Of a stretch of DNA of 64,000 bases, positions 5,176 through 63,551 are shown piece after piece. Origin of the DNA: Candidatus Poribacteria bacterium (GTDB lineage: Bacteria > Poribacteria > WGA-4E > WGA-3G); the NCBI GenBank assembly GCA_022819945.1, contig JAJEGI010000015.1:75807-139806 (forward strand), given 5' to 3'. The position numbers and the translations under genes were made by a program. Positions within the stretch are counted from its first letter, which is position 1; each line of letters begins with the position of its first letter. Under the pieces are notes generated by a model. That model was not told the origin of the DNA. It worked only from the letters and a program-made list of their open reading frames with translations, and searched no databases.

Positions 5176-5439
5176 ACAACAATTTCCTATATTGTAAATT
5201 CTGCTGCCCAACGATTTCGTTCAGTGATACAGATTTATTAACATCTCTTATAACACTAAAGTTTAGACAATATGATATAGAATTCCGGCAGCTTTATGCA
5301 AATTGATTGTAGTATCCGGTGTGGTTGGATGAAGATTAATTTTTTAATTCGGTACTTTCTTGGTGAAGCCCGGTGCAGTTAGGAAACCGCATCTACCGGG
5401 TCTTGTCCGACCCACAAGCCAAAACCATATAAGCACCTA
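5176..5439. repeat. Intergenic region with a hairpin repeat at 5372-5393
   Basis: No gene is visible in this gap. Positions 5372-5393 form an imperfect hairpin, GGTGCAGTT-AGGA-AACCGCATC, closely related to the perfect hairpin at 44636-44657. The following bases (CTACCGGG) also match the second copy (CTACTGGG), so these are two copies of one dispersed repeat. The motif CCTACTACTTT next to the end of the downstream gene recurs at 8559 and 8597. Confidence 0.6.
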
Positions 5440-38269: not shown

Positions 38270-38316
38270 ATTTTCATGCCTCTCTTCGGACTGATGGCTC
38301 CACTACTATAATTCGT

Positions 38317-38401
38317 ACTTACGCATTCCGCTTTGCTGGCGGCGTTTAAAACCCCGCCAGCAGTACGTAATACGCGGGTTATCATAGAAAAATGCGTAAG
38401 T
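38317..38401. mobile_element. 85-bp MITE-like repeat, copy A
   Basis: Perfect 11-bp terminal inverted repeats, ACTTACGCATT (38317-38327) and AATGCGTAAGT (38391-38401). The interior holds a hairpin, GCTGGCGG ... CCGCCAGC. Copy B at 38661-38749 shares the interior (ATTCCGCTTTGCTG, ACCCCGCCAGCA). No clear target-site duplication is seen. It lies between rpsF and its promoter, so it would be part of the transcribed leader. Confidence 0.65.
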
Positions 38402-38523
38402 CCTGATAATAAAAGCAGGGAGCAGAGATTAATAAATATAAGTTAACGCCATCCGATGTCCGCACATTGAAAGTGCGATTACAGGTTCAGATGGAATTCT
38501 ATGCGTCAATTTTAGTTTATATA

Positions 38524-38552
38524 ATTATACCACATTTTGATTTGTATATCAA
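38524..38552 (-). promoter_or_regulatory. Sigma70-type promoter of the rpsF-ssb-rpsR-rplI-dnaB operon
   Basis: On the minus strand: TTGATA (38552-38547), 17-nt spacer, TATAAT (38529-38524). It is about 250 nt upstream of the rpsF start. The same arrangement occurs for guaB. MITE copy A lies in the leader. Confidence 0.72.
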
Positions 38553-38660
38553 CCAAAAACCGCGTTTTTTTTCGCTATTAGTCGTCAGCCATCAGTATGC
38601 TTCGCAGTGAGAACAATCAGGGGAATAGTTATCGGTTTTCAGTTGTCAGTAGTCAATTCA

Positions 38661-38749
38661 GGACTTAGGCATTTTTCTATGATAACCTATGTATTCCGCT
38701 TTGCTGACGGGGTTTTAAACCCCGCCAGCAAGGGGGGATGCGTAGGTCC
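38661..38749. mobile_element. 89-bp MITE-like repeat, copy B
   Basis: Terminal inverted repeats GGACTTAGGCAT (38661-38672) and ATGCGTAGGTCC (38738-38749) match each other with one mismatch. The interior contains GCTGACGGGG and CCCCGCCAGC, as in copy A. The phrase TTTTTCTATGATAACC is inverted relative to copy A. It abuts the 3' end of the following methyltransferase gene. Confidence 0.6.
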
Positions 38750-44551: not shown

Positions 44552-44635
44552 TTTCGTGAGAAGTACATTTAAAACCTTCACAGAGTCATTCAGTTTTAAG
44601 AAATTATAGAGTTTCTCGTTCTTTTTTCAGGATCC

Positions 44636-44657
44636 GGTGCGGTTAGGAAACCGCACC
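44636..44657. repeat. Perfect 9-bp hairpin of a dispersed repeat family
   Basis: GGTGCGGTT-AGGA-AACCGCACC is a perfect stem-loop followed by TACTGGG. A diverged copy lies at 5372-5393. It lies in the 316-bp gap between the two receptor genes, which otherwise holds the hairpin at 44529-44551. Confidence 0.6.
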
Positions 44658-44731
44658 TACTGGGCCTGGGGGTCCAAAATTGAACTAAAAACCGGGAACT
44701 GAATGGCTCTGAAACCTTCATCAGAGAGGTT

Positions 44732-52215: not shown

Positions 52216-52447
52216 CAGGGCGATTTAGTTTTCAGTTCCGGTATTGGTTTTGGTTGACATAGGTTAAGTTTAGACGCAAGATCGCGAGCGTGAAGAAATC
52301 CGCAGAAATCCGCAGAAATCCGCAGAAACCCCCTATCAAATACCCCTATCAAATACCCCAAGCAAATACCCCCAGCAAAAACACTCGCTCCTACAGAGGA
52401 GGAGTATTTACATAGATAAAGTGAATGTGTAAAACTAAATACCCCTG
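52216..52447. mobile_element. Non-autonomous inverted-repeat element (MITE), copy 1
   Basis: Terminal inverted repeats CAGGGCGATTTAGTTTT (52216-52232) and AAAACTAAATACCCCTG (52431-52447). Flanks are CGGTTAAGAT and CGGTTAGGAT, a 10-bp target-site duplication with one mismatch. The interior has CGCGAGCG ... CTCGCTCC hairpin arms separated by a long loop of CCGCAGAAAT and CCCCTATCAAATA tandem units (52293-52380). No protein is encoded. Confidence 0.75.
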
Positions 52448-52471
52448 CGGTTAGGATCTTGTTTGCACAAT

Positions 52472-52500
52472 TTGCAATATTGGCGTAGATGTGGTAAAAT
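52472..52500 (+). promoter_or_regulatory. Sigma70-type promoter of the LeuB-like gene
   Basis: TTGCAA (52472-52477), 17-nt spacer ending GG, TAAAAT (52495-52500), 46 nt before the ATG at 52547. The right end of the MITE copy lies 24 bp upstream of the -35. Confidence 0.68.
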
Positions 52501-52546
52501 ATAGGGTATCGAAAATTCAAGATATGATTATGTTAGGAGCAAATCT

Positions 52547-53599
52547 ATGTATAAAATCGGTCTCATCCCAGGCGATGGAATTGGCCCCGAAGTAACGCGC
52601 GAAGCGATGAAAGTCTTCGGGGCAGCAGCTGCAGAAGCAGGCATTCAATACGAAACAGTCGAATACGATGTCGGTGGCGATCGGTATCTTGCAACTGGCG
52701 AGGTACTCCCCGATTCAGTCTTAGAAGAACTTCGCGGGTTAGACGCAATCTATCTCGGCGCGATCGGACACCCCGATGTTAAACCCGGCATTTTAGAGAA
52801 AGGTATCCTGCTAAAGGTCCGGTTTGAACTCGATCTCTATATTAACCTCCGTCCGGTTAAACTCTATCCTGGCGTGCCGACCCCTCTGAAAGACAAAGGT
52901 CCCGAAGATATTGATTTCATTATTGTTCGCGAAAATACCGAAGGACTCTATGCTGGTATCGGCGGTTTCCTGAAACGTGGTACACGCGATGAAGTGGCGA
53001 TTCAGGAGATGATTAACACTTACAAAGGTGTAGAACGCTGCGTCCGTTATGCCTACGAATTGACCCAAAAACGGAGCAAGGAAAATACCTTGACGCTCTG
53101 TGATAAAGCCAATGTGCTCACCTATGCACACGACCTCTGGCGCCGCGTTTTTGACGAAGTCGGCGAAGACTATCCTGACATCAAAAAAGAGTATGCGTTC
53201 GTTGATGCAACAACGATGTGGATGGTGAAAAACCCGGAATGGTTCGATGTGATTGTAACGTGCAACATGTTCGGCGACATCATCACCGACCTCGGCGCGA
53301 TGATCCAAGGCGGTATGGGAATCGCAGCATCCGGCAACTTGAATCCGGAGAGCGTCGCTATGTTTGAACCGATTCACGGTTCGGCACCGCGTTATACCGG
53401 CAAAAACGAGATTAATCCGATCGCAGCGATCGGTGCAGCCGGAATGATGCTCGATCATCTCGGACATGCGGAAGCAGCACAAAAGGTCGAAAAATCTATG
53501 AGTGATCTACTCGGAAGCGGCAAAATCAAAGATTTAGGTGCCGGACGGATGGGCTATACGACTGAAGAGGTCGGCGACCTTATCGCGGAAGGGCTGTAG
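52547..53599 (+). CDS. 3-isopropylmalate/isocitrate dehydrogenase family protein (LeuB-like)
   Basis: A 350-residue NAD-dependent beta-decarboxylating dehydrogenase. GLIPGDGIGPEV, the active-site RENTEGLYAG, DKANVLT and the C-terminal FEPIHGSAP are intact. The LRPVKLYPG segment suits IPMDH or tartrate/isocitrate-type relatives; the substrate is not certain, and no other leu genes are adjacent. AGGAG before the ATG and the promoter at 52472-52500 support the start. Confidence 0.88.
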   Translation: MYKIGLIPGDGIGPEVTREAMKVFGAAAAEAGIQYETVEYDVGGDRYLATGEVLPDSVLEELRGLDAIYLGAIGHPDVKPGILEKGILLKVRFELDLYINLRPVKLYPGVPTPLKDKGPEDIDFIIVRENTEGLYAGIGGFLKRGTRDEVAIQEMINTYKGVERCVRYAYELTQKRSKENTLTLCDKANVLTYAHDLWRRVFDEVGEDYPDIKKEYAFVDATTMWMVKNPEWFDVIVTCNMFGDIITDLGAMIQGGMGIAASGNLNPESVAMFEPIHGSAPRYTGKNEINPIAAIGAAGMMLDHLGHAEAAQKVEKSMSDLLGSGKIKDLGAGRMGYTTEEVGDLIAEGL

Positions 53600-53646
53600 G
53601 CTTGAAAGATCTGTTTTTTCTGAAATTGGCACTTATCATGCCGGTT

Positions 53647-54405
53647 TCAGATGAGACGTGCCGTGAAGTTAATCCGATCTGAATACCGGTTCCAACGGTT
53701 GAAGGTGTACATATCGTAGGCACTCAGCAGTTTATAACCGGTCGCTTTGAGTAGGTCGTTGACAGTGTGCACTTCAAAGATGCGTTGCTGATGGACCTCC
53801 TCATAGCGTCTGAACAATTCGCCTTCGCGGATAAAAAACGTCAGGAGTGTTCTGCACATCTTCGTGTTATAGAGGTAGTTGTTTTTCCAGATATAGGTGT
53901 AGTCTTCATGGTTTGAAGCGAATGTCTTGTTGTGAAAGTGCTCAACGATGTTCCGTTCAGTCGTCACATCAAAGATGAAGAGTCCGTCTGGTTCTAAATG
54001 TTCAGCAACGTGTTGCAAAACGTTGCTGAGTTCGGTTTCATCGTAAGCGTAGTTGATACTATCATAGGTACAGAGGATCGCATCGAACCGTTGGTTCAGC
54101 TGAAAATCCCGCATATCCCCGTGATGCAGTTCGATATTCACGTCGTGTGCTTCCGCTTTATCTTTGGCGATTTCGAGCATGCCGACTGCGCGGTCTACAC
54201 CGGTCATTTCATAGCCTTTTAGGGCAAGTTGTATTGTCAAGGCACAGGTGCCACAGGCTAAATCGAGGACTCGGCGCGGCTTACAATCATACTTATCAAA
54301 AAGCGATTCGATATAGTGTGTCCAGCGCGTATAGTTGACGTTTGTCATCATCCGGTCGTAGGCGTAGGCGAATTTTTCATAAGGGGGCGTTAGATGTATC
54401 TGCAT
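53647..54405 (-). CDS. Class I SAM-dependent methyltransferase
   Basis: A 252-residue methyltransferase. Motif I is RVLDLACGTCALTIQLALKG; VDRAVGMLEIAKDKA and DAILCTYDSINYAYD follow. The substrate is unknown. The ATG at 54405 is chosen by family length (HLTPPYEKFAYAYDRMM); an upstream TTG is possible. It overlaps no neighbour and is convergent with the LeuB-like gene. Confidence 0.78.
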   Translation of the reverse strand: MQIHLTPPYEKFAYAYDRMMTNVNYTRWTHYIESLFDKYDCKPRRVLDLACGTCALTIQLALKGYEMTGVDRAVGMLEIAKDKAEAHDVNIELHHGDMRDFQLNQRFDAILCTYDSINYAYDETELSNVLQHVAEHLEPDGLFIFDVTTERNIVEHFHNKTFASNHEDYTYIWKNNYLYNTKMCRTLLTFFIREGELFRRYEEVHQQRIFEVHTVNDLLKATGYKLLSAYDMYTFNRWNRYSDRINFTARLI

Positions 54406-54439
54406 TGTGTAAATGTCGCTTGCAAACGGGGTTCGCAAA

Positions 54440-54829
54440 CTACTCTGCCGCTCCTTTAAATCCGACAGAAGCGTTCATCATCCGAAGGAGCGTGTTAATT
54501 TCTTCAGCGTTCCACACTTCATCGCTGTTGGCTTCAATCGCATAGTTTCCTACGGCTCTGATCTTGCGGAGGTCAATTTTACCGGTGAGAAAACTGAACG
54601 GTAGCCGCATAACAGCAGACTTAACCCGCTCAAATGTCGCTTCGATGTCCACCCGTTCAACGCCTTCAGGTGCCTGGCGAATCAGCGCATCCTTCACCAT
54701 ATCGGCACCGAAACTGAATAATTCTCTGATGATAAACCACTGCAAAATAGCGAAGCATACGGTAAGGATTAAGAGAACCGCCAGAATTTTGACGAGTCGC
54801 TGTCTTTTTTTTTCTTTCTGGTCATTCAT
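54440..54829 (-). CDS. Small membrane-anchored hypothetical protein
   Basis: A 129-residue protein. A basic N-terminus (NDQKEKKRQRLVK) precedes one membrane span (about residues 14-36), then a soluble domain (DIEATFERVKSAVMRLPFS, EANSDEVWNAEEINTLL). No family is recognised. GGAGGTAAATTTAAC before the ATG at 54829 supports the start. Confidence 0.6.
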   Translation of the reverse strand: MNDQKEKKRQRLVKILAVLLILTVCFAILQWFIIRELFSFGADMVKDALIRQAPEGVERVDIEATFERVKSAVMRLPFSFLTGKIDLRKIRAVGNYAIEANSDEVWNAEEINTLLRMMNASVGFKGAAE

Positions 54830-54957
54830 GTTAAATTTACCTCCGAGTTGGATCCTGTATCTACTTCTAATATTAACAATTTCCATAGAGATTGTCAACA
54901 GATTTTTCTATTGCGAACGGTTGTCAGTCATCTGTAGGTGGATAGGGCGGATAAACA

Positions 54958-56052
54958 ATGAGAATAGGTATTGTAGGTAGACCACAGGTCGGCAAAACGA
55001 CAGTGTTTAACACCTTGGCTCAATCGAATGCAGAAATCGGCGGCTACACGAGTCGCGGACAAATAAATCTAAGCACTGCCAATGTTCCTGACGCACGTCT
55101 CGAACGGTTAGCCGAGATTTTTGAATCGAAAAACATGACACCTGCAACAATTGATTATGTAGATGTCGCTGGCGTAACCAAATCCGACGTGGAGCAAGCG
55201 GAATTGGATTCTGGGATGCTCGCGGAACTTCGGACCGTTGATGCGCTTGCGCATGTCGTCAGGCTGTTTGAAAATGATGCGGTGCCACACGTTGACGGCA
55301 GCGTTGACGGCGAACGCGATATAGAGAACGTTGCGTTAGAGTTCGCACTGGCAGACCTGCAAATTGTTGAAGGTAGGCTCGACCGACTCCGAAAGCAGTA
55401 TCAAAACCAGAAACTACCAGAGCAGCAAAGCGAAATCCGGATTTTAGAACTGTGCCAACAGACATTAGAGAGTGGAGAACCGCTCCGTGTTTTAAACTTA
55501 TCTGCTAATGAAGAGAAACTGATACGCGGTTACGGATTTCTGACGCTGAAACCGTTGCTGTTGGTCTGCAATATTGATGAAACGCAGCTTGACGAGGCTG
55601 ACGCAATTCTTGAACGCTTCAGTAAATATGAGTCGGAACCGCAAACCGCAGTTATTGTACTCGCTGCACAATTAGAGTTGGAACTCTCGCAGCTGGATGA
55701 TGACGATACCGAAATCTTTATGGAAGAGATGGGGTTGAGTGAATCTGCATTAGATCGGTTTGTCCAGACTTCATATCGGTTATTAGGACTCCTCACATTC
55801 TTCACAATGAATTCGACAGATACACGTGCGTGGACGCTGCGTGCTGGACAGACTGCCGTTGAAGCAGCCGGACGTATCCATACAGACTTTGCGGATGCTT
55901 TTATCCGTTCGGAAACAATTAACTGGGAAGACTTAGTCGCGTGCGGGAGTTATCAAGAAGCCCGAAGCAGAGGCTTGCTGAGAGCAGAGGGCAAAACCTA
56001 TCAGGTTCAAGAGGGTGATGTCTTACTGATTCTGGCGAACCCGACCCGGTAG
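54958..56052 (+). CDS. ychF: Ribosome-associated ATPase/GTPase YchF
   Basis: A 364-residue Obg-family protein close to the usual YchF length (about 363). The P-loop reads GRPQVGKTT (7-15), slightly different from the typical GLPNVGKST. NIDE replaces the NKxD specificity motif, as in YchF, which favours ATP. The C-terminal TGS-like segment runs FFTMNSTDTRAWTLRAGQTAVEAAG. The upstream 54930-54950 segment contains a GTTGTCAGTCATC repeat-like sequence. Confidence 0.9.
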   Translation: MRIGIVGRPQVGKTTVFNTLAQSNAEIGGYTSRGQINLSTANVPDARLERLAEIFESKNMTPATIDYVDVAGVTKSDVEQAELDSGMLAELRTVDALAHVVRLFENDAVPHVDGSVDGERDIENVALEFALADLQIVEGRLDRLRKQYQNQKLPEQQSEIRILELCQQTLESGEPLRVLNLSANEEKLIRGYGFLTLKPLLLVCNIDETQLDEADAILERFSKYESEPQTAVIVLAAQLELELSQLDDDDTEIFMEEMGLSESALDRFVQTSYRLLGLLTFFTMNSTDTRAWTLRAGQTAVEAAGRIHTDFADAFIRSETINWEDLVACGSYQEARSRGLLRAEGKTYQVQEGDVLLILANPTR

Positions 56053-56071
56053 CGGGCAGTTATATCATATA

Positions 56072-56094
56072 GCGAGCGCAGCTCGCTCCTACAG
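56072..56094. repeat. Hairpin repeat GCGAGC-G-CA-GCTCGC followed by TCCTAC
   Basis: The same core (GAGCGCAGCTCGCTCCTAC) is found inside the transposable copies at 58522-58545 (reverse complement) and 63263-63285. Here it stands without the terminal repeats, between the convergent ychF and plsC genes. Confidence 0.6.
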
Positions 56095-56115
56095 CAAAGG
56101 GTTGCTGGGGCTTGT

Positions 56116-56766
56116 TTAACGAAGCAGTTCGTCTCGTAAATCTGCGATGGCTTCCATCATCTGATTGCCCATTTCCTGATACATTTCGCGCTTGGTTTCG
56201 GATTCCGAGGCAATCAATTCGAGCGGTTCCCCGAAGGCGACGGTTAATTTTGCACGTCGGAGTCGTTTACTGTTACGCGGTAGCACCCGTTCTGCCCCGC
56301 GATGATAGACAGGAATTGTTGGTACACCTGCTCGGTGTGCGATAAAACAGGCGCCGTCCCGTGCCTTCCCTAATGTGCCGTCAACGCTGCGGGTGCCTTC
56401 TGGGAACATAAGTACAACGTTACCGGCTTTCAGCAGTGAGATCGTCTTTCGTAATGCCCCCAAATCCGGTGCGCCTCTATTCACCGGATAGGCGTTATAC
56501 ATTGAAATGAGTTTGCCTAAGCCGGGGATGTCAAATGCGTTGCTTCGTGCCATGAAATGGATTTCACGGTTCGCAGCGGAACCGACGATCACAGGGTCAA
56601 GGAAACTGACGTGATTTGAAACGAGCAGTACGCCGCCTGCCTTTGGAATATGGTGAACGCCGCGCGTCTCAAGGCGACCAAAGGTTTTACAAAAGATATT
56701 AGTGAGCCGATGTCCCCATCGGTAAAGTGGACGCGGTGTCCAGAAACCGTTATTGGTATACCACAT
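56116..56766 (-). CDS. plsC: 1-acyl-sn-glycerol-3-phosphate acyltransferase (PlsC family)
   Basis: A 216-residue acyltransferase. The catalytic H52-x4-D57 (NHVSFLD) and the phosphate-binding FPEGTRS (121-127) are intact. It adds the second acyl chain in phospholipid synthesis. The ATG at 56766 gives the family length and starts 4 bp after the cmk stop; a longer in-frame version overlaps cmk. The cmk-plsC arrangement is common. Confidence 0.9.
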   Translation of the reverse strand: MWYTNNGFWTPRPLYRWGHRLTNIFCKTFGRLETRGVHHIPKAGGVLLVSNHVSFLDPVIVGSAANREIHFMARSNAFDIPGLGKLISMYNAYPVNRGAPDLGALRKTISLLKAGNVVLMFPEGTRSVDGTLGKARDGACFIAHRAGVPTIPVYHRGAERVLPRNSKRLRRAKLTVAFGEPLELIASESETKREMYQEMGNQMMEAIADLRDELLR

Positions 56767-56770
56767 AATT

Positions 56771-57454
56771 TTACGTTGAACCGATCCCACCTTTGCAAAC
56801 TGCTGCGATGATAAAGTCAACCACTTCATTAATTGTTTTGTCTGTTGTATCGACGATAATCGCGTCTTCAGCAGTCCGAAGCGGACTGTGTGCCCGCGTT
56901 ATATCCTTTTCATCACGTTCTCGAATCTCTGCTTCGACGGATTCTAATGTTGTATCTACATCTTGCCGCCGTAGTTCTCTGAGTCTTCGTTTTGCGCGTT
57001 CTTTCACGGAGGCATCAAGGTAGAACTTAAAATCGGCATCTGGAAAAACAATCGTCGTCAAATCTCTACCTTCGGCGACGATACTCCCTTCACTGCCGAT
57101 CCGTTGTTGATGCTTAACGATCTCATGGCGGATCTCTGGTATTTTTGCAACATCTGCGACGAGTCTGTTGACGGGTGGCGTGCGGATTTCGATGGAGACA
57201 TCTTCGTCATTGAGCAAAATCCTTTTGCCGTTATCTGTGAATTCAATATGACACGCCTTCACCTGATCAATAAGTTCAGGACTCTCTGCTGCGAGTCCAT
57301 GGTGTATTGCCAACACGGTTACGGCTCGGTACATCGCGCCGGAATCGAGATAAAGCAATCCGAGTTTTTCTGCGATGCGCCGTGCGACCGTGCTTTTCCC
57401 GGACCCGGCGGGCCCATCCATCGCAATCGTTACCTGAGATCCAATCTTGTTCAT
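56771..57454 (-). CDS. cmk: Cytidylate kinase
   Basis: A 227-residue enzyme. P-loop GPAGSGKST (14-22), YLDSGAMYRAVT and EGRDLTTIVFPDADFKFYLDAS are diagnostic. It phosphorylates CMP/dCMP. The ATG overlaps the tyrA stop (ATGA), and GGGGAGG precedes it, so the two are coupled. Confidence 0.95.
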   Translation of the reverse strand: MNKIGSQVTIAMDGPAGSGKSTVARRIAEKLGLLYLDSGAMYRAVTVLAIHHGLAAESPELIDQVKACHIEFTDNGKRILLNDEDVSIEIRTPPVNRLVADVAKIPEIRHEIVKHQQRIGSEGSIVAEGRDLTTIVFPDADFKFYLDASVKERAKRRLRELRRQDVDTTLESVEAEIRERDEKDITRAHSPLRTAEDAIIVDTTDKTINEVVDFIIAAVCKGGIGST

Positions 57455-58374
57455 AAGCCTCCCCGTTCTTTTCTGCGCTTTTTGACTGTAATTTGTGCCT
57501 CCAGGAGTAGGCGTTCAATCTCAGCGAGGTTATCATTCTGAAGCAAAGTTTTGAATTCTGTTAAGTTATCTATGATGTCATCAATGAGAGATAAAACGAC
57601 ATCGCTGTTCTGTGTGAAGATGTCGGTCCACAAGTCCGGTGATCCTGCTGCGATACGTGTGGCATCTCGAAAGCCGGTCGCTGTAAAATTTAGTGCCTTA
57701 CCGTCTTCGGTCTCTACATTCGCAACGGTGTTGGTGAGTATACTGGCGATAAGGTGTGGAAGGTGGCTTGCGGCACCGATAAGTAGATCGTGGGTTTCGG
57801 GTGAGAGGAGATACGGTACACCGCCAACAAATTCCCAAAGACTTTCAATAAGTTTTAAGGCATCGGGATCGGTGTTTTCTGTCTGCGTTAGGATACATGT
57901 CGCATTTTCAAAAAGCGTTGCGCGCGCTGCACCGACACCTGTTTCATGGGAACCTGCCATCGGATGTCCACCAACAAAAGGGAGGGTGTCTGTTCCGTAT
58001 GCCTGTAGCTGCGCCTCAATTGCCCGAACCATCGTCGATTTTGTGCTGCCGACATCTGTCAAGACGATCCGGTTCTGGTGTGTGCCAACAGATTCAATGA
58101 TGCGCGCCACGAACATCGGAACCAAGGTAACAGGTGGACAGAGTACGACGATGTCGGTTTCTCGGAGCCCCTCAGCCAAATCCGTTGTGATGACATCAAC
58201 TGCATCACGCGCGAGTGCGGTTTCAAGTCTGCCGATATTTCGTCCGAGTCCGACGCGCTGTCCCTGAAACCCGTTCTTCTTCAGTGCGAGTCCCAAGGAG
58301 CCGCCGATTAATCCGACGCCCCATATTGTAATTCGGTGAATGGTCCGTAAATCTGTAAACATACCGTCGGACAT
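57451..58374 (-). CDS. tyrA: Prephenate dehydrogenase
   Basis: A 307-residue enzyme of tyrosine synthesis. ITIWGVGLIGGSLGLAL binds NAD; LTDVGSTKS and GGHPMAGSHETGVGAA are diagnostic. No ACT or chorismate mutase domain is attached. ATG 58374 has AAAGGA 11 nt upstream; ATG 58362 is an alternative. The promoter at 58413-58441 should drive tyrA-cmk-plsC. Confidence 0.9.
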   Translation of the reverse strand: MSDGMFTDLRTIHRITIWGVGLIGGSLGLALKKNGFQGQRVGLGRNIGRLETALARDAVDVITTDLAEGLRETDIVVLCPPVTLVPMFVARIIESVGTHQNRIVLTDVGSTKSTMVRAIEAQLQAYGTDTLPFVGGHPMAGSHETGVGAARATLFENATCILTQTENTDPDALKLIESLWEFVGGVPYLLSPETHDLLIGAASHLPHLIASILTNTVANVETEDGKALNFTATGFRDATRIAAGSPDLWTDIFTQNSDVVLSLIDDIIDNLTEFKTLLQNDNLAEIERLLLEAQITVKKRRKERGGL

Positions 58375-58412
58375 CCTCAAACATATCCTTTAACTGGTGG
58401 AGGTATTATTGG

Positions 58413-58441
58413 TATACACGATATTTTAACCAGATTTGCAA
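58413..58441 (-). promoter_or_regulatory. Sigma70-type promoter of tyrA-cmk-plsC
   Basis: On the minus strand: TTGCAA (58441-58436), 17-nt spacer, TGTATA (58418-58413), 39 nt before the tyrA ATG. The left end of the MITE copy at 58471 is 29 bp upstream of this -35. Confidence 0.6.
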
Positions 58442-58470
58442 GTATTTGTCAAGAGAAATAGTTGTTGGCT

Positions 58471-58692
58471 CAGGGGCATTTAGTTTTACAAATTTGCTTT
58501 ATATGTGTATATGTTTTTTTTGTAGGAGCGAGCTGTGCTCGCGATCTTACTTCTAAACGTTAACATGTGTATGTTTTTTTTGTAGGAGCGAGTGTTTTTG
58601 CTTGGGTATTTCTTCACGCTCGCGATCTTACTTCTAAACGTTAACATCTGTCAATCAAAACCAAAGTCAAAGCCTAAAACTAAATCGTCCTG
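58471..58692. mobile_element. Non-autonomous inverted-repeat element (MITE), copy 2
   Basis: Terminal inverted repeats CAGGGGCATTTAGTTTT (58471-58487) and AAAACTAAATCGTCCTG (58676-58692). The flanks GTTGTTGGCT (58461-58470) and GTTGTTGGCT (58693-58702) are a perfect 10-bp target-site duplication. Inside are two tandem copies of TTTTTGTAGGAGCGAG ... CTCGCGATCTTACTTC; the first has a 4-nt loop and the second a loop carrying the TTTTTGCTTGGGTATTTCTT module. Confidence 0.8.
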
Positions 58693-58816
58693 GTTGTTGG
58701 CTACAGATAGCAGAAGACAGTTGGTAGGACTCAATATTTTTGCTGGAAAAATTAACGCAGACGTGATAGAATGGAATAAAGTAAAATCTCCTTTATCTGC
58801 TTTTTTCTTCAGAACT

Positions 58817-60997
58817 ATGAACGCCATAAAAGAGGCACATTATAATCTGGGTATCGCTTATCTGGAGGCGGGACAATACAGTAGGGCTGTTCCTGAGTTC
58901 AAGTCGGCTATACAGTTGGACCCGAACTTTATTGGTGCGCACTGTGCGCTGTGTCGCGCCTATCTCCAGCAAGATGAACTCGAAAACGCAGGCATTGCGA
59001 TCACGGCAGCATTGAAACTTGATGCGAACCACCAACCGGCGTTACTCCTATGCGGCATGATAACGGATGCCTACTATGACCGAGGCAAAGCCTATCTTGA
59101 TGACAGAAATTATACGGAAGCCGTCGCAGGATTTCAGAAAGCGATCGCACTCGATGCAGATTTAGGAGCCAGTTCACAAGACACTGAGTCCGAAAAGACG
59201 CATATCCATGTCCATCTCGGTGCCGCTTACATCGGTATGAAGGCGTACGAGCAAGCGATTGAGGCGTTAGAACACGCGCTCACACAAGATGCCGACCTCG
59301 TCGATGCACACTATCATCTCGGTTACGCTTACGTAGAGCAGGGCGAACACGACAAAGCGATCCCGCACCTTGAACGCGCTATCGCCATCGCTCCACATCT
59401 CAAGCGCGCCCACTATCACTTCGCTCGTGCCCACCGAGCATTGGGAAACTTGGAGGCAGCTACACATGCTGTCACAGAGACGTTAAGGCTCGACCCGAAC
59501 TATCAACCGGCACACGAACTCGCGGATACAATAAAACAGGCGCATTATAACAGAGGGACCATCCATCTCAACGGTGAAAGTTATAGCGAAGCCGTCACCG
59601 CTTTCCAAAATGCGATAACCCTTGATTCCGATTTTGCGACTGCACACTATAACCTCGGTTTAGCCTACTTGAAGATGGAGACGTACCCACGCGCTGTCCC
59701 GTCACTTGAGAAAGCGGTAGTCCTCGATCCAAACCACAAAGCGGCGTACCATGCGCTTGCGCTTGCCTATCTCGGACAGCAGGAACTCGGGAAAGCGAGA
59801 GATGCCGCGAGAGCAGCGTTGAAAATAGACCCGAACTATCAACCGGCACTCTCACTTCTGGAAGCCGTGGATCCGAGTTTTACTGCTCCTGAAACGCAGG
59901 TAACTGCACAACCTGATCCAGAGCCACCGGTCAATCCACAACCAGATACAAAATCGAGACAAGAGATGCATTACGATCTCGGTATCGCGTATTTGGAATC
60001 GAAAATGCACGCCGAAGCGATCGCGGAATTCCGAAAGGCGATAGATGTGGCCCCCGACTTCGTGGCAGCACACGTCGGTTTAGGCACGATTTATCTTGAG
60101 ATGGGACAATTAGACGACGCGGAAAACGCAGCGCGGGAAGCATTACGGATTGATGCCCCTGCCGATGCTGCCCGTCAACTTTTAGACGACATCAGACAGG
60201 CACGTTCCGACCCTCCGCAACCTGAATCCGCAGAGCAAATAGTTCCATCAACGGATACCGCTGATGTCCAACGGGATTTAGAGCGCGGACTCGCCTTTCT
60301 TAATGGTCGGCAATATCAACAAGCTGCGGCTGCGTTCAAGGGGGTGATAAAGTCGAATCCGGATGCCATGGAAGCGCACTACGGTTTAGGTCAGGCATAC
60401 CTTGAGATAGGTGCGTATGACGATGCCAAAACCGCGGCAGAGGCAGCGTTAAAACTCAAGCCGAACAGCCACAAAGTACGTGAATTGATTCAAGTCATCG
60501 CGTTTGCCAGAAACATAGAGAGAAACCGGAAAATACGGAAGAAAGTTTTGTCTTACGTTGTCGTTATAGCGATTGTTGCAGTAGCTGCCTTTTTCGTCTG
60601 GCGAATGTTGCCACCGGAACCCGGTCCGGATCCGGGACCTCCGCAACCTACACCTCCGAACCTCTTGATAGAACCCCGTTTAAGTGAACGTCAACTTTTT
60701 GCGGGGCGGACGGCATATCTCACGCTGATAATCAAAAACAGTGGTGGTCCGGCGCGCAACGTCAAAATCAGACTTCAACCTAAGTCTGGGGACAAAGTAA
60801 ACTATAAACTCCCTGCATCTATTCCGCAAGTACGTAAAAATGGCGAAGAAACAATTGAAATTCCTATTACAGCAGATGACAATATAGCAGGAACTCAAAA
60901 AATAGAGTTGCAAATTGAATTGTTGGGGGAAAATGGAATCAAACTTGCAACTACAAAATTTCCTATTACAATTTTCGGTCCTGTGCCCATAAAATAA
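58817..60997 (+). CDS. Tetratricopeptide-repeat protein with C-terminal membrane segment and Ig-like domain
   Basis: 726 residues from the first ATG that matches a TPR start (MNAIKEAHYNLGIAYLEAGQ). About ten or more TPR units (YxLGxAYL...A...AI.LDP pattern) fill the first 560 residues. A membrane span (VLSYVVVIAIVAVAAFFVW) follows, then a Pro-rich linker and a beta domain (LSERQLFAGRTAYLTLIIKN) probably outside the membrane. The frame is open upstream to GTG 58592 inside the MITE, which would add 75 residues beginning MFLLGYFFTLAILLL; a stop existed in this frame before insertion. The start is therefore uncertain. An adjacent TPR gene follows 10 bp downstream. Confidence 0.7.
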   Translation: MNAIKEAHYNLGIAYLEAGQYSRAVPEFKSAIQLDPNFIGAHCALCRAYLQQDELENAGIAITAALKLDANHQPALLLCGMITDAYYDRGKAYLDDRNYTEAVAGFQKAIALDADLGASSQDTESEKTHIHVHLGAAYIGMKAYEQAIEALEHALTQDADLVDAHYHLGYAYVEQGEHDKAIPHLERAIAIAPHLKRAHYHFARAHRALGNLEAATHAVTETLRLDPNYQPAHELADTIKQAHYNRGTIHLNGESYSEAVTAFQNAITLDSDFATAHYNLGLAYLKMETYPRAVPSLEKAVVLDPNHKAAYHALALAYLGQQELGKARDAARAALKIDPNYQPALSLLEAVDPSFTAPETQVTAQPDPEPPVNPQPDTKSRQEMHYDLGIAYLESKMHAEAIAEFRKAIDVAPDFVAAHVGLGTIYLEMGQLDDAENAAREALRIDAPADAARQLLDDIRQARSDPPQPESAEQIVPSTDTADVQRDLERGLAFLNGRQYQQAAAAFKGVIKSNPDAMEAHYGLGQAYLEIGAYDDAKTAAEAALKLKPNSHKVRELIQVIAFARNIERNRKIRKKVLSYVVVIAIVAVAAFFVWRMLPPEPGPDPGPPQPTPPNLLIEPRLSERQLFAGRTAYLTLIIKNSGGPARNVKIRLQPKSGDKVNYKLPASIPQVRKNGEETIEIPITADDNIAGTQKIELQIELLGENGIKLATTKFPITIFGPVPIK

Positions 60998-61007
60998 GGA
61001 GATAGTA

Positions 61008-62849
61008 ATGAATGAAAGGATTTGGGGAATCATCGGCGGAGTTGCTCTGTTACTTGCGCTTTTATCACCACTCGTATTAGGAAATTCTAAAAAAGTGGAG
61101 AGGTTTTTTGAAGAGGCTGAGGCGTTGTATGAGCGTTCCAACTATGAGAATGCTATTGAAAAATATAAGGACGCGCTAAAAGAATCGAACAAACTCGGAG
61201 CAAAAACGGAGCATATTGACAAAGATTTCACCACCCTCGTCAATCTTAAAATTGTGCAATGCTACTACTACCTCGCCGAAGAGACGCAGGACGTTAATTA
61301 TTATCGAGATGCCCTTGGACATATCGAAAAGGTTTCGTCAAAAGCCTATGTTACTGGACATGTAGAAGAATTAACCTATCTATGGGCAAATATTCTCTAC
61401 AAAACCGAAAAGTTTGATTTAGCAGAATCCAAATTTGATCAACTTATAAACGATTTTCCAAACAGCCGTTGGATCCCAAAAGCACTCTTTATTACTGGAG
61501 AGATAAACTATCAGCAAGAAAGTAGAGAAGAATCTTTGAGTGCTTTTCAAAGACTTATAGACGAATTTCCACATTCTGAATTTACAGCCAAAGCAGAGCA
61601 ATATATTAACGAACTGTTGTCTTCAAATGGTCCCGAACCACCCGAACCGGAACCAGTATCTCAAGACGTGGGCATGTACAACAATGCCATCAACTTAAAA
61701 CAGCAAGGTAAGGTCCACGATGCCTACGAACTCTATACGAATCTTATTGCCCGATTTCCAGAGGGCGAACATGTCACTGATGCCTATGTAGGGAAAGCAG
61801 ACATCCATCTTGAAGCAGAGAATTATGTGAAAGCACGCGAGAACTACGAGGAAGCTATATACAGTACAGATGATGAGGAGCGACGAGTAGAAATTTATGA
61901 GGCATATCATCGCACCTATCTTACCCCTGATCCTATATCTCCAACTCCATCACCTGAACCTAATGACGAACTCTTTACAAAAGGTATGCTGCTTCGGATG
62001 GAAAAACGATTTTCGGAAGCTGCCGAGACATTTGAAGAACTCACCAATAACAGTCTCTCCACTGAAGATATATCGTCCGGACTCTACTGGTCAGGACGTT
62101 GTTACCATGACGCATCACGATTCAAAAAATCAGTTGATGCCTACGAAAAACTTATTGCAGACTATGACGACAGTTCATATACCATCAAAGCATACTATTA
62201 TTTAGCTCTTGCATACAGGGATTGGGCAAAAGCACTTCCAGATCAGTCCAAATATGAGTCGGTAATTGATACGGTTAAGGAAGCCAAAGAGAGATACAAA
62301 GACAAAAATGATTCCTCTGTTGAGGGATGGTTGGATCGTATGGGGGATCTCGAAGAAGAAGCACGTAACCCAACAGAAAAAAGAGAGTATACGGACAAAA
62401 ACGGAGAGGATTCCAGTCCTCACATAGAACCGGAAAATAAGAACGGTCAATCGACTCAAGAAACAAACAAACACCCAGACCCCACAAAGCGGGAAAAACC
62501 TGATAAGGATAAATACTATGGTCGCGGATTAACATTTTTTGATGAATCACAGTATTCAGAAGCAATTGAAGCATTCAAAAACGCCATCAATATTGACTCA
62601 GAATTTAAAGAAGCACATTTTTACCTTGGAGTGATTTATATTAAACAGAAAAGACACGCTGAGGCCATAGAAGCATTTGAAGAGGCGATACGTATTGATT
62701 CTGAGTTTAAGGAGGCATACTACAACCTCAGTCTTGTGCACTTGGAACGCAATGACCGTGAAAAAGCAAGGGAGGCAGCCAAGAGTGCTTTAAGAATTGA
62801 TCCATATTATGAACCGGCGCGCCTGCTTATAGAATTCGTAACTGATTAA
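61008..62849 (+). CDS. Tetratricopeptide-repeat (BamD/YbgF-like) membrane-anchored protein
   Basis: A 613-residue protein. One N-terminal membrane segment (residues 5-25) is followed by TPR-type repeats in two blocks: residues 30-215 (with FPNSRW and FPHSEF, the BamD/YbgF style), and a C-terminal block (about 500-610: YYGRGLTFFDESQYSEAIEAFKNAI). A Pro/Glu- and Lys/Asn-rich linker separates them. It probably scaffolds a complex; no partner is evident. AAGGAG seven nt before the ATG supports the start. Confidence 0.75.
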   Translation: MNERIWGIIGGVALLLALLSPLVLGNSKKVERFFEEAEALYERSNYENAIEKYKDALKESNKLGAKTEHIDKDFTTLVNLKIVQCYYYLAEETQDVNYYRDALGHIEKVSSKAYVTGHVEELTYLWANILYKTEKFDLAESKFDQLINDFPNSRWIPKALFITGEINYQQESREESLSAFQRLIDEFPHSEFTAKAEQYINELLSSNGPEPPEPEPVSQDVGMYNNAINLKQQGKVHDAYELYTNLIARFPEGEHVTDAYVGKADIHLEAENYVKARENYEEAIYSTDDEERRVEIYEAYHRTYLTPDPISPTPSPEPNDELFTKGMLLRMEKRFSEAAETFEELTNNSLSTEDISSGLYWSGRCYHDASRFKKSVDAYEKLIADYDDSSYTIKAYYYLALAYRDWAKALPDQSKYESVIDTVKEAKERYKDKNDSSVEGWLDRMGDLEEEARNPTEKREYTDKNGEDSSPHIEPENKNGQSTQETNKHPDPTKREKPDKDKYYGRGLTFFDESQYSEAIEAFKNAINIDSEFKEAHFYLGVIYIKQKRHAEAIEAFEEAIRIDSEFKEAYYNLSLVHLERNDREKAREAAKSALRIDPYYEPARLLIEFVTD

Positions 62850-63193
62850 CTACGACTATACTAAACTTTAGACAATTTTCAGCGGGGCGGGCAACCTGAA
62901 AAGAAACCCGCAGAAGCACCCAAGCAAATACCCTCAGGAACCCGCTACGGAAGATACATAGCACTCCTACGGAGTGCGGGAGTTTGGATAGACCGTTTTC
63001 TATAGACATAGCACTCCTACGGAGTGTGGAATTTTTACGAGGTGCTTGCGTGCATGAAACTCTCGTAAAAATATCCACGCCTTTGAAACTCAATGCTTAC
63101 GAAATAGAGATTGTTCAAACTTCAGTACGGCTATAAATTGACCTTGAAAACTGCTTCCGAGTTACATAGACAAAACTTTCCATAACCTACACT
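62850..63193. repeat. Repeat-rich intergenic region
   Basis: No gene is seen. Two copies of GCACTCCTACGGAGTG lie at 62961-62977 and 63011-63027, each a 6-bp stem hairpin. A unit of the ACCCAAGCAAATACCC module lies at 62903-62935 between arms AGCGGG and CCCGCT. The MITE copy 3 follows directly. Confidence 0.65.
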
Positions 63194-63341
63194 CAGGACG
63201 ATTTAGTTTTCGGTTTTGGCTTTGGTTTTCGTTTAAGGGTGTTAACGTTTTTTTTTTCGCAAAATCGCGAGCGCAGCTCGCTCCTACGGAGGAAGACATA
63301 TCCATGTCTACAAAGTGAATATGTAAAACTAAATACCCCTG
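63194..63341. mobile_element. Non-autonomous inverted-repeat element (MITE), copy 3
   Basis: Terminal inverted repeats CAGGACGATTTAGTTTT (63194-63210) and AAAACTAAATACCCCTG (63325-63341). Flanks AACCTACACT and AACCTACGCT are a 10-bp target-site duplication with one mismatch. The interior has the hairpin GCGAGCGCAGCTCGC with a short loop, the shortest of the three copies (148 bp). Confidence 0.75.
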
Positions 63342-63389: not shown

Positions 63390-63454
63390 CGGAGAATATA
63401 ATTCCCTATTTCGCAAATTACCACTTTATAGTAGATCTCGTAATTATTTGTACA

Positions 63455-63494
63455 CTCGTGGGCGTAGGGACTGGGCAACCCAGTTTCCCCTACG
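63455..63494. repeat. Long hairpin of the GTAGGG ... CCCTAC palindrome family
   Basis: Arms CTCGT / ACGAG enclose GTAGGGACTGGG and CCCAGTTTCCCCTAC. The same palindrome type sits inside tsaD at 20278-20304. It lies in the leader between the promoter and the WD40 start. Confidence 0.6.
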
Positions 63495-63551
63495 AGGGTG
63501 TGAAGTGTAAACATATTTTCCGATTTTACTATAAACAAGGAGCTGGATTGC

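Follow-up and report, generated by a model that had tools for sequence, protein, structure and literature searches.

ISAs1-type ends and RAYT-associated REP hairpins combined in short mobile repeats of a Poribacteria genome

A 64,000-nucleotide stretch of Candidatus Poribacteria bacterium DNA (contig JAJEGI010000015.1, positions 75,807 to 139,806; hereafter the window) carries several short repeats with common inverted ends, which raises the question of what moves them and what they carry between their ends. We consider it very probable that each copy is a non-coding miniature inverted-repeat transposable element (MITE), likely moved in trans by a transposase of the ISAs1 family, and that the core of all four copies is the GTAG hairpin, a repetitive extragenic palindrome (REP), which flanks the genes of REP-associated tyrosine transposases (RAYT) in this genus.

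Three copies had been reported in the initial annotation of the window, and all of them were recovered at the same coordinates with their ends and flanking 10-mers. Copy 1 (52216..52447, minus strand as judged from its REP) is a 232-bp type A MITE with an expanded hairpin loop, flanked by CGGTTAAGAT/CGGTTAGGAT, a 9/10 match. Copy 2 (58471..58692, plus strand) is a 222-bp type A MITE with two REP-A sequences in direct order, flanked by GTTGTTGGCT twice (10/10), and copy 3 (63194..63341, minus strand) is a 148-bp type A MITE flanked by AACCTACACT/AACCTACGCT (9/10). These three have their 17-bp inverted ends in common. Two things had been overlooked, namely the RAYT-type REP in the core and a fourth copy (44581..44711, minus strand), a 131-bp type B MITE with the variant ends CAGAGTCATTCAGTTTT / CAGAGCCATTCAGTTCC and the exact 9-bp repeat AAACCTTCA at either side. 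With up to 3 mismatches, the end pattern CAGGGNNATTTAGTTTT has 7 matches in the window, a number reached by 0 of 100 shuffles. As is typical of MITEs, the copies are short (131-232 bp), bounded by 17-bp inverted ends and non-coding: no open reading frame (ORF) of at least 100 aa lies wholly within any of them, and one ORF of 101 aa and the mechanical 5′ portion of another, longer one overlap copies 1 and 2. Rfam gave no match within the window at gathering scores. Genome searches for PF01609, Y1 transposases and the ISAs1 protein place no match in the window, in agreement, for these families, with the statement that it holds no transposase.

Related genomes record the insertion of these elements. 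At the position of copy 1, the flanks join over a single CGGTTAGGAT in the relative G003, which is 98% identical over 953 bp adjacent to the copy; in G061 and G019 the site is likewise empty but diverged, and the MITE itself was matched in 0 of the 29 relatives' loci compared. The empty site of copy 2 holds a single GTTGTTGGCT in G003 and that of copy 3 a single AACCTACACT in G061, in each case the 1 of 11 relatives' loci with both flanks aligning up to the junction. Because relatives hold an empty site with one 10-mer, copies 1-3 were inserted with target duplication, and the whole unit, REP included, inserts with a duplication of 9-10 bp. The 10-mers at the empty sites also suggest that the flanking mismatches of copies 1 and 3 arose after insertion. 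The spacer of copy 3 was likely hit three times, because G019 and G025 have MITEs of their own at other positions there, in the same orientation; the MITE of G025 is flanked by CTGATGATAT/CTGATGCTAT and that of G019 is degraded. The duplications and empty sites bear out the initial annotation in describing mobile, non-autonomous repeats with target duplications, and the relatives keep one 10-mer, not both, which it had proposed to look at. Its stronger statement, that the repeats directly show mobilisation by a cut-and-paste type enzyme acting in trans, is sound as regards insertion; cut-and-paste was overstated, and action in trans is what we infer from the comparisons given below.

The same ends are widespread in the genus. 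The relaxed 17-mer CAGGNNNATTTAGTTTT has 31 exact occurrences genome-wide and 54 when up to 1 mismatch is allowed, compared with 0 and 5 for the reversed-pattern control. Exact ends were found in 34 of the 35 congeners and in 2 of the 24 genomes outside the genus (60 genomes including the genome's own), over all of which the reversed pattern has 6 matches in total. The check that other copies should share the ends thus came out positive. A paired-end pattern, which covers only elements of 127-157 bp, matched 72 stretches in genome_contigs, all from Poribacteria, and 0 in viral_contigs, leaving carriage by phages unsupported. We collected 110 distinct paired elements, with up to 2 mismatches per end, from the fetched loci; because the elements were fetched by their ends, the sample is not random, and G019 is over-represented in it. 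A 10-bp duplication of at least 9/10 was present in 60 of the 110 (40 exact), and 20 further elements had an exact 9-bp duplication. When flanks were swapped among elements, 4 (10-bp) and 0 (9-bp) of 32,714 combinations reached these thresholds. Within the genome, 5 of approximately 7 recognised type A elements lie within 45 kb (G000:C89:128022-172998, the window and beyond), in both REP orientations; local hopping would explain this clustering on C89.

The parent family was found through longer elements with the same ends. At contig ends of G006 these ends adjoin transposase sequence, and the transposase piece matches NF033564, the ISAs1 family transposase (E 2.8e-23); in G029, a left end and a right end have the 10-mer CCTGTGAACC in common. 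A search with the G006 piece gave matches in 28 of the 60 genomes. Two loci of G005, L133 and L161, are autonomous ISAs1 elements of 1347 bp whose two ends are both CAGGGCCATTTAGTTTT and whose duplications match 10/10; they have the same ends and duplication length as the MITEs. The L133 protein (393 aa) matches NF033564 (E 1.9e-62) as well as PF13808 and PF01609. Elements of 1338-1341 bp in G010, G016, G017 and G018 also have 10/10 duplications and the same or variant ends, the one in G016 with one in-frame stop, and the full-length elements of G004 and G007 have 9-bp duplications. ISAs1 elements make duplications of 8-10 bp. The variant ends, too, are found in small as well as in full-length elements, L040 corresponding to L137 and L139, and copy 4 to L135. 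By strict pattern, 0 short elements have the CAGAG end variant together with a duplication; copy 4 has such ends with mismatches. In addition, an internally deleted ISAs1 derivative of 411 bp (L152, in G002) was found, without duplication. Also in favour of this parent, the CGG-side arms of the MITEs resemble the transposase-start end of ISAs1, with a mean z of 1.95 (type A) and 1.56 (type B) and 45% and 33% of values above 2; the other six arm/end pairings, with a mean z of -0.87 to 0.12, have no such resemblance. The full-length element with the same ends and a transposase, which it had been proposed to look for, is therefore present in congeners, and none was found in the genome's own contigs. 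Judging from these sequence matches, the MITEs would be mobilised in trans by the ISAs1 transposase of another copy. This enzyme would bind the 17-bp ends and link them to a target cut in staggered fashion, with 9-10 bp between the cuts; repair of the gaps would then generate the target duplication.

The cores of the elements are of a different nature. The type A core is GTAGGAGCGAGCTGYGCTCGCGA and the type B core is GTAGGT(G/T)CGG...CCG(C/A)ACC. In the window, copy 2 has two REP-A sequences on the plus strand, at 58522..58544 and at 58582..58625, the latter with TGTTTTTGCTTGGGTATTTCTTCA in its loop; copy 3 has REP-A at 63265..63287 and copy 4 has REP-B at 44636..44660, both on the minus strand. 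The REP-A core of copy 1 (52282..52394, minus strand), whose loop is enlarged by repeated GGGTATTTG/TTTCTGCGGA-like units, was recognised by eye and is missed by the REP-A pattern. By pattern, 95 of the 110 elements contain a GTAG-hairpin core (45 A, 46 B and 4 C, a third palindrome), whereas any core occurred in 1 of 2200 shuffled interiors; several of the 15 unassigned elements, including copy 1, are by eye A or B with altered loops. The orientation of the hairpin is constant within each type. In type A the REP runs from the AA-side towards the CGG-side arm in 42/42 short elements, and in type B it is opposite, with the AA arm on the far side in 42/42.

Several further observations concern these cores. 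A motif like GTTTTTGCTTGGGTATTTCTTCA was seen in REP-A and REP-B hairpin loops (58582-58625 and 52282-52394; L319, L321, L026 and L212) and elsewhere, with 27 distinct sites in the 1.5 Mb of fetched loci; a stem test of this loop motif was non-discriminating (4 of 27 sites versus 227 of 2000 random places). In L166, L167, L169 and L345, ISAs1-type paired ends surround other palindromic cores, for example of the GTAGGTCGGGTTT...CCCGACC type, which suggests further core exchanges. The genome has 28 matches to REP-A, of which 5 stand beside the RAYT gene, 6 are by coordinates in MITEs and one is free at 56070-56092; this REP-A-like palindrome and a REP-B-like one at 5372-5396 lie outside any recognised MITE.

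The same hairpins accompany RAYT genes. The Y1 transposase on C34 of the genome matches NF047646, REP-associated tyrosine transposase (E 5.9e-39), and has two REP-A upstream and three downstream in inverted orientation. From the genus, 71 Y1 loci were fetched, which are part of all matches, and 55 of them had an ORF by our motif rule; the 16 left out of the clustering on this ground have no A, B or C core save one C match (L289). In the RAYT tree, the gene on C34 belongs to a clade of 9 loci (support 0.992), with REP-A at 8 of them, at 7 on both sides. A second group, set apart with support 0.954, comprises 13 loci, all of them (13/13) with REP-B on either side. L329, one of the REP-B RAYTs, matches NF047646 (E 6.6e-37), and L334 falls apart from the REP-B group in the tree. 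The other 33 loci have A or B on both sides in 0 cases and on one side in 3. At the 13 RAYT loci the leader CCCAGGCCCG (at least 8/10) stands before 34 of 62 REP-B, and in MITEs before 35 of 40, with a background of 5 in 38,756 places. As for core C, just 2 weak pattern matches were found in the 71 Y1 loci, and no RAYT could be linked to it.

Taken together, REPs of one type all point the same way with respect to the ends, and the two types point in opposite directions; therefore at least two captures of REPs followed by ISAs1-type spread are likely. REP hairpins would have come between ISAs1-type ends at least twice, as REP-A and as REP-B, and then spread as passengers; RAYT would not be needed for movement of these MITEs by the ISAs1 route.

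Some of the data weigh against this interpretation. First, 30 of the 110 elements have no duplication at the threshold used. Second, no intact ISAs1 was found in the genome itself, where there is a lone fragment, on C176, with a different end, CAGGGTCATTCAATTGT; a collapsed copy could escape notice at the ends of contigs. Third, the AA-side arms of the MITEs have no similarity to the stop end of ISAs1, and for the CGG-side arms the z values of single elements are modest and not independent of one another. Fourth, L336 belongs to the REP-A RAYT clade and lacks REP-A, having a single REP-B instead. Finally, the leader CTCTTCT (at least 5/7) precedes 31 of 36 REP-A at RAYT loci and 23 of 50 in MITEs, where it is more variable.

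Three alternatives may be considered. The first is that the hairpin is functional for the element. The MITEs would then be chimeras of two unrelated systems, in which the DDE enzyme ISAs1 would act at the ends while RAYT, an HUH enzyme, or else a host factor would act on the REP, so that ISAs1 and RAYT could spread the element jointly; such chimeras would have been assembled at least twice, with two different RAYT/REP pairs, because the hairpin would aid persistence or spread. The uptake of at least two different RAYT REPs and the retention of the GTAG hairpin, by pattern, in 95 of the 110 sampled elements are consistent with this possibility. However, copies 1 and 2 have enlarged loops and still show 9/10 and 10/10 duplications, and a founder effect with amplification accounts for the frequency of the hairpin equally well. 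We regard a functional hairpin as rather unlikely, although it fares best of the three.

The second, slightly less probable still, is that RAYT repeatedly inserted REP cores into pre-existing, REP-free ISAs1 MITEs, as opposed to one capture per type. RAYTs with matching REPs are resident, and 15 of the 110 elements lack an A, B or C core as judged by pattern, which leaves room for REP-free forms. On the other hand, several of these 15 are the elements recognised by eye as A or B with altered loops, no element was found that combines clean type A arms and a duplication with the lack of a REP, and the REP has a uniform orientation relative to the arms in all 42 short type A elements.

The third, movement by IS4-type elements as guessed in the initial annotation, draws on duplications of about 10 bp and on the presence of DDE_Tnp_1 genes in the genome, but it is very improbable and was replaced because the elements sharing the MITE ends encode, and match, ISAs1-family transposase, while the DDE_Tnp_1 gene of C127 lies between different, TACTAAAGTTTGGACAAT-like inverted repeats and the fragments on C11/C150, rejected as mover, are part of an element bounded by ACGTGAGTTTGA, which in turn interrupts a MITE. 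As a separate observation, the end of C150 (L027) and the start of C102 (L020) hold a type A MITE, flanked by CTACAATACA on both contig ends, that seems to be interrupted by another insertion sequence (IS), one which is bounded by ACGTGAGTTTGA and carries a DDE_Tnp_1 fragment; a similar junction is present in G019 (L087).

Other repeats occur nearby. Beside copy 3, at 63426-63534, there is a second short repeat with many matches in the genome and in congeners. Since G019 lacks this stretch in the orthologous spacer (L278), the repeat seems to be a further small mobile element, possibly one with a TA target. A different repeat family is represented at 38307-38747, with inverted arms and GGACTTACGCA / TGCGTAAGTCCT-like ends; such ends are also nested within the ISAs1-type MITEs L008 and L115.

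How do these elements relate to known systems? REPINs reportedly contain GTAG REPs (Bertels and Rainey, in 2011), a likeness to the elements described here. Under the definition cited in PMC3189936, a REPIN is a REP pair forming a hairpin; the type A and type B consensuses, in contrast, hold a single REP instead of an inverted pair, and the two REPs of copy 2 are in direct order. GTAG REPs and REPtrons, as defined in PMC3733652 and PMC2817692, consist of a GTAG tag and a palindrome, inverted around a RAYT gene. The cores of our elements share both the tag with its palindrome and the position beside RAYT genes, but in our elements the REP lies between ISAs1-type ends as well and travels along with them. 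IS-derived bacterial MITEs such as NEMIS, RUP and Chunjie are described in PMC3733652 and PMC10969869 as short, non-coding elements that have inverted ends and target duplications and whose movement relies on the enzyme of a parent IS. The window elements share these features, the parent-IS enzyme being the probable mover here, and differ in having the GTAG REP core of a RAYT system and an ISAs1 parent; neither ISAs1 nor RAYT was found in the available text of the MITE review (PMC10969869). Compared with ISAs1 insertion sequences, they have the same or variant 17-bp ends and duplications of 9-10 bp, but they are 131-232 bp long without a transposase, whereas the insertion sequences are 1338-1347 bp long with one. 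MITEs, ISAs1 and RAYT REPs are thus each known already, and a DDE-type MITE carrying the REP of the HUH enzyme RAYT appears to be a new combination; no description of REPs inside ISAs1 MITEs was found in the open-licence literature, judged by titles and abstract openings.

In these repeats, two mobile-DNA systems meet in one element. For annotation, a parent family is now provided for repeats that are present in 34 of the 35 congeneric genomes searched. The spread of REPs is usually ascribed to the action of RAYT. These units offer a second, RAYT-independent route, because a REP of the kind found beside a resident RAYT lies in units that were inserted at new sites with 9-10 bp duplications. 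Since the same REP occurs free, beside its RAYT and inside a MITE within one genus, the question can be tested.

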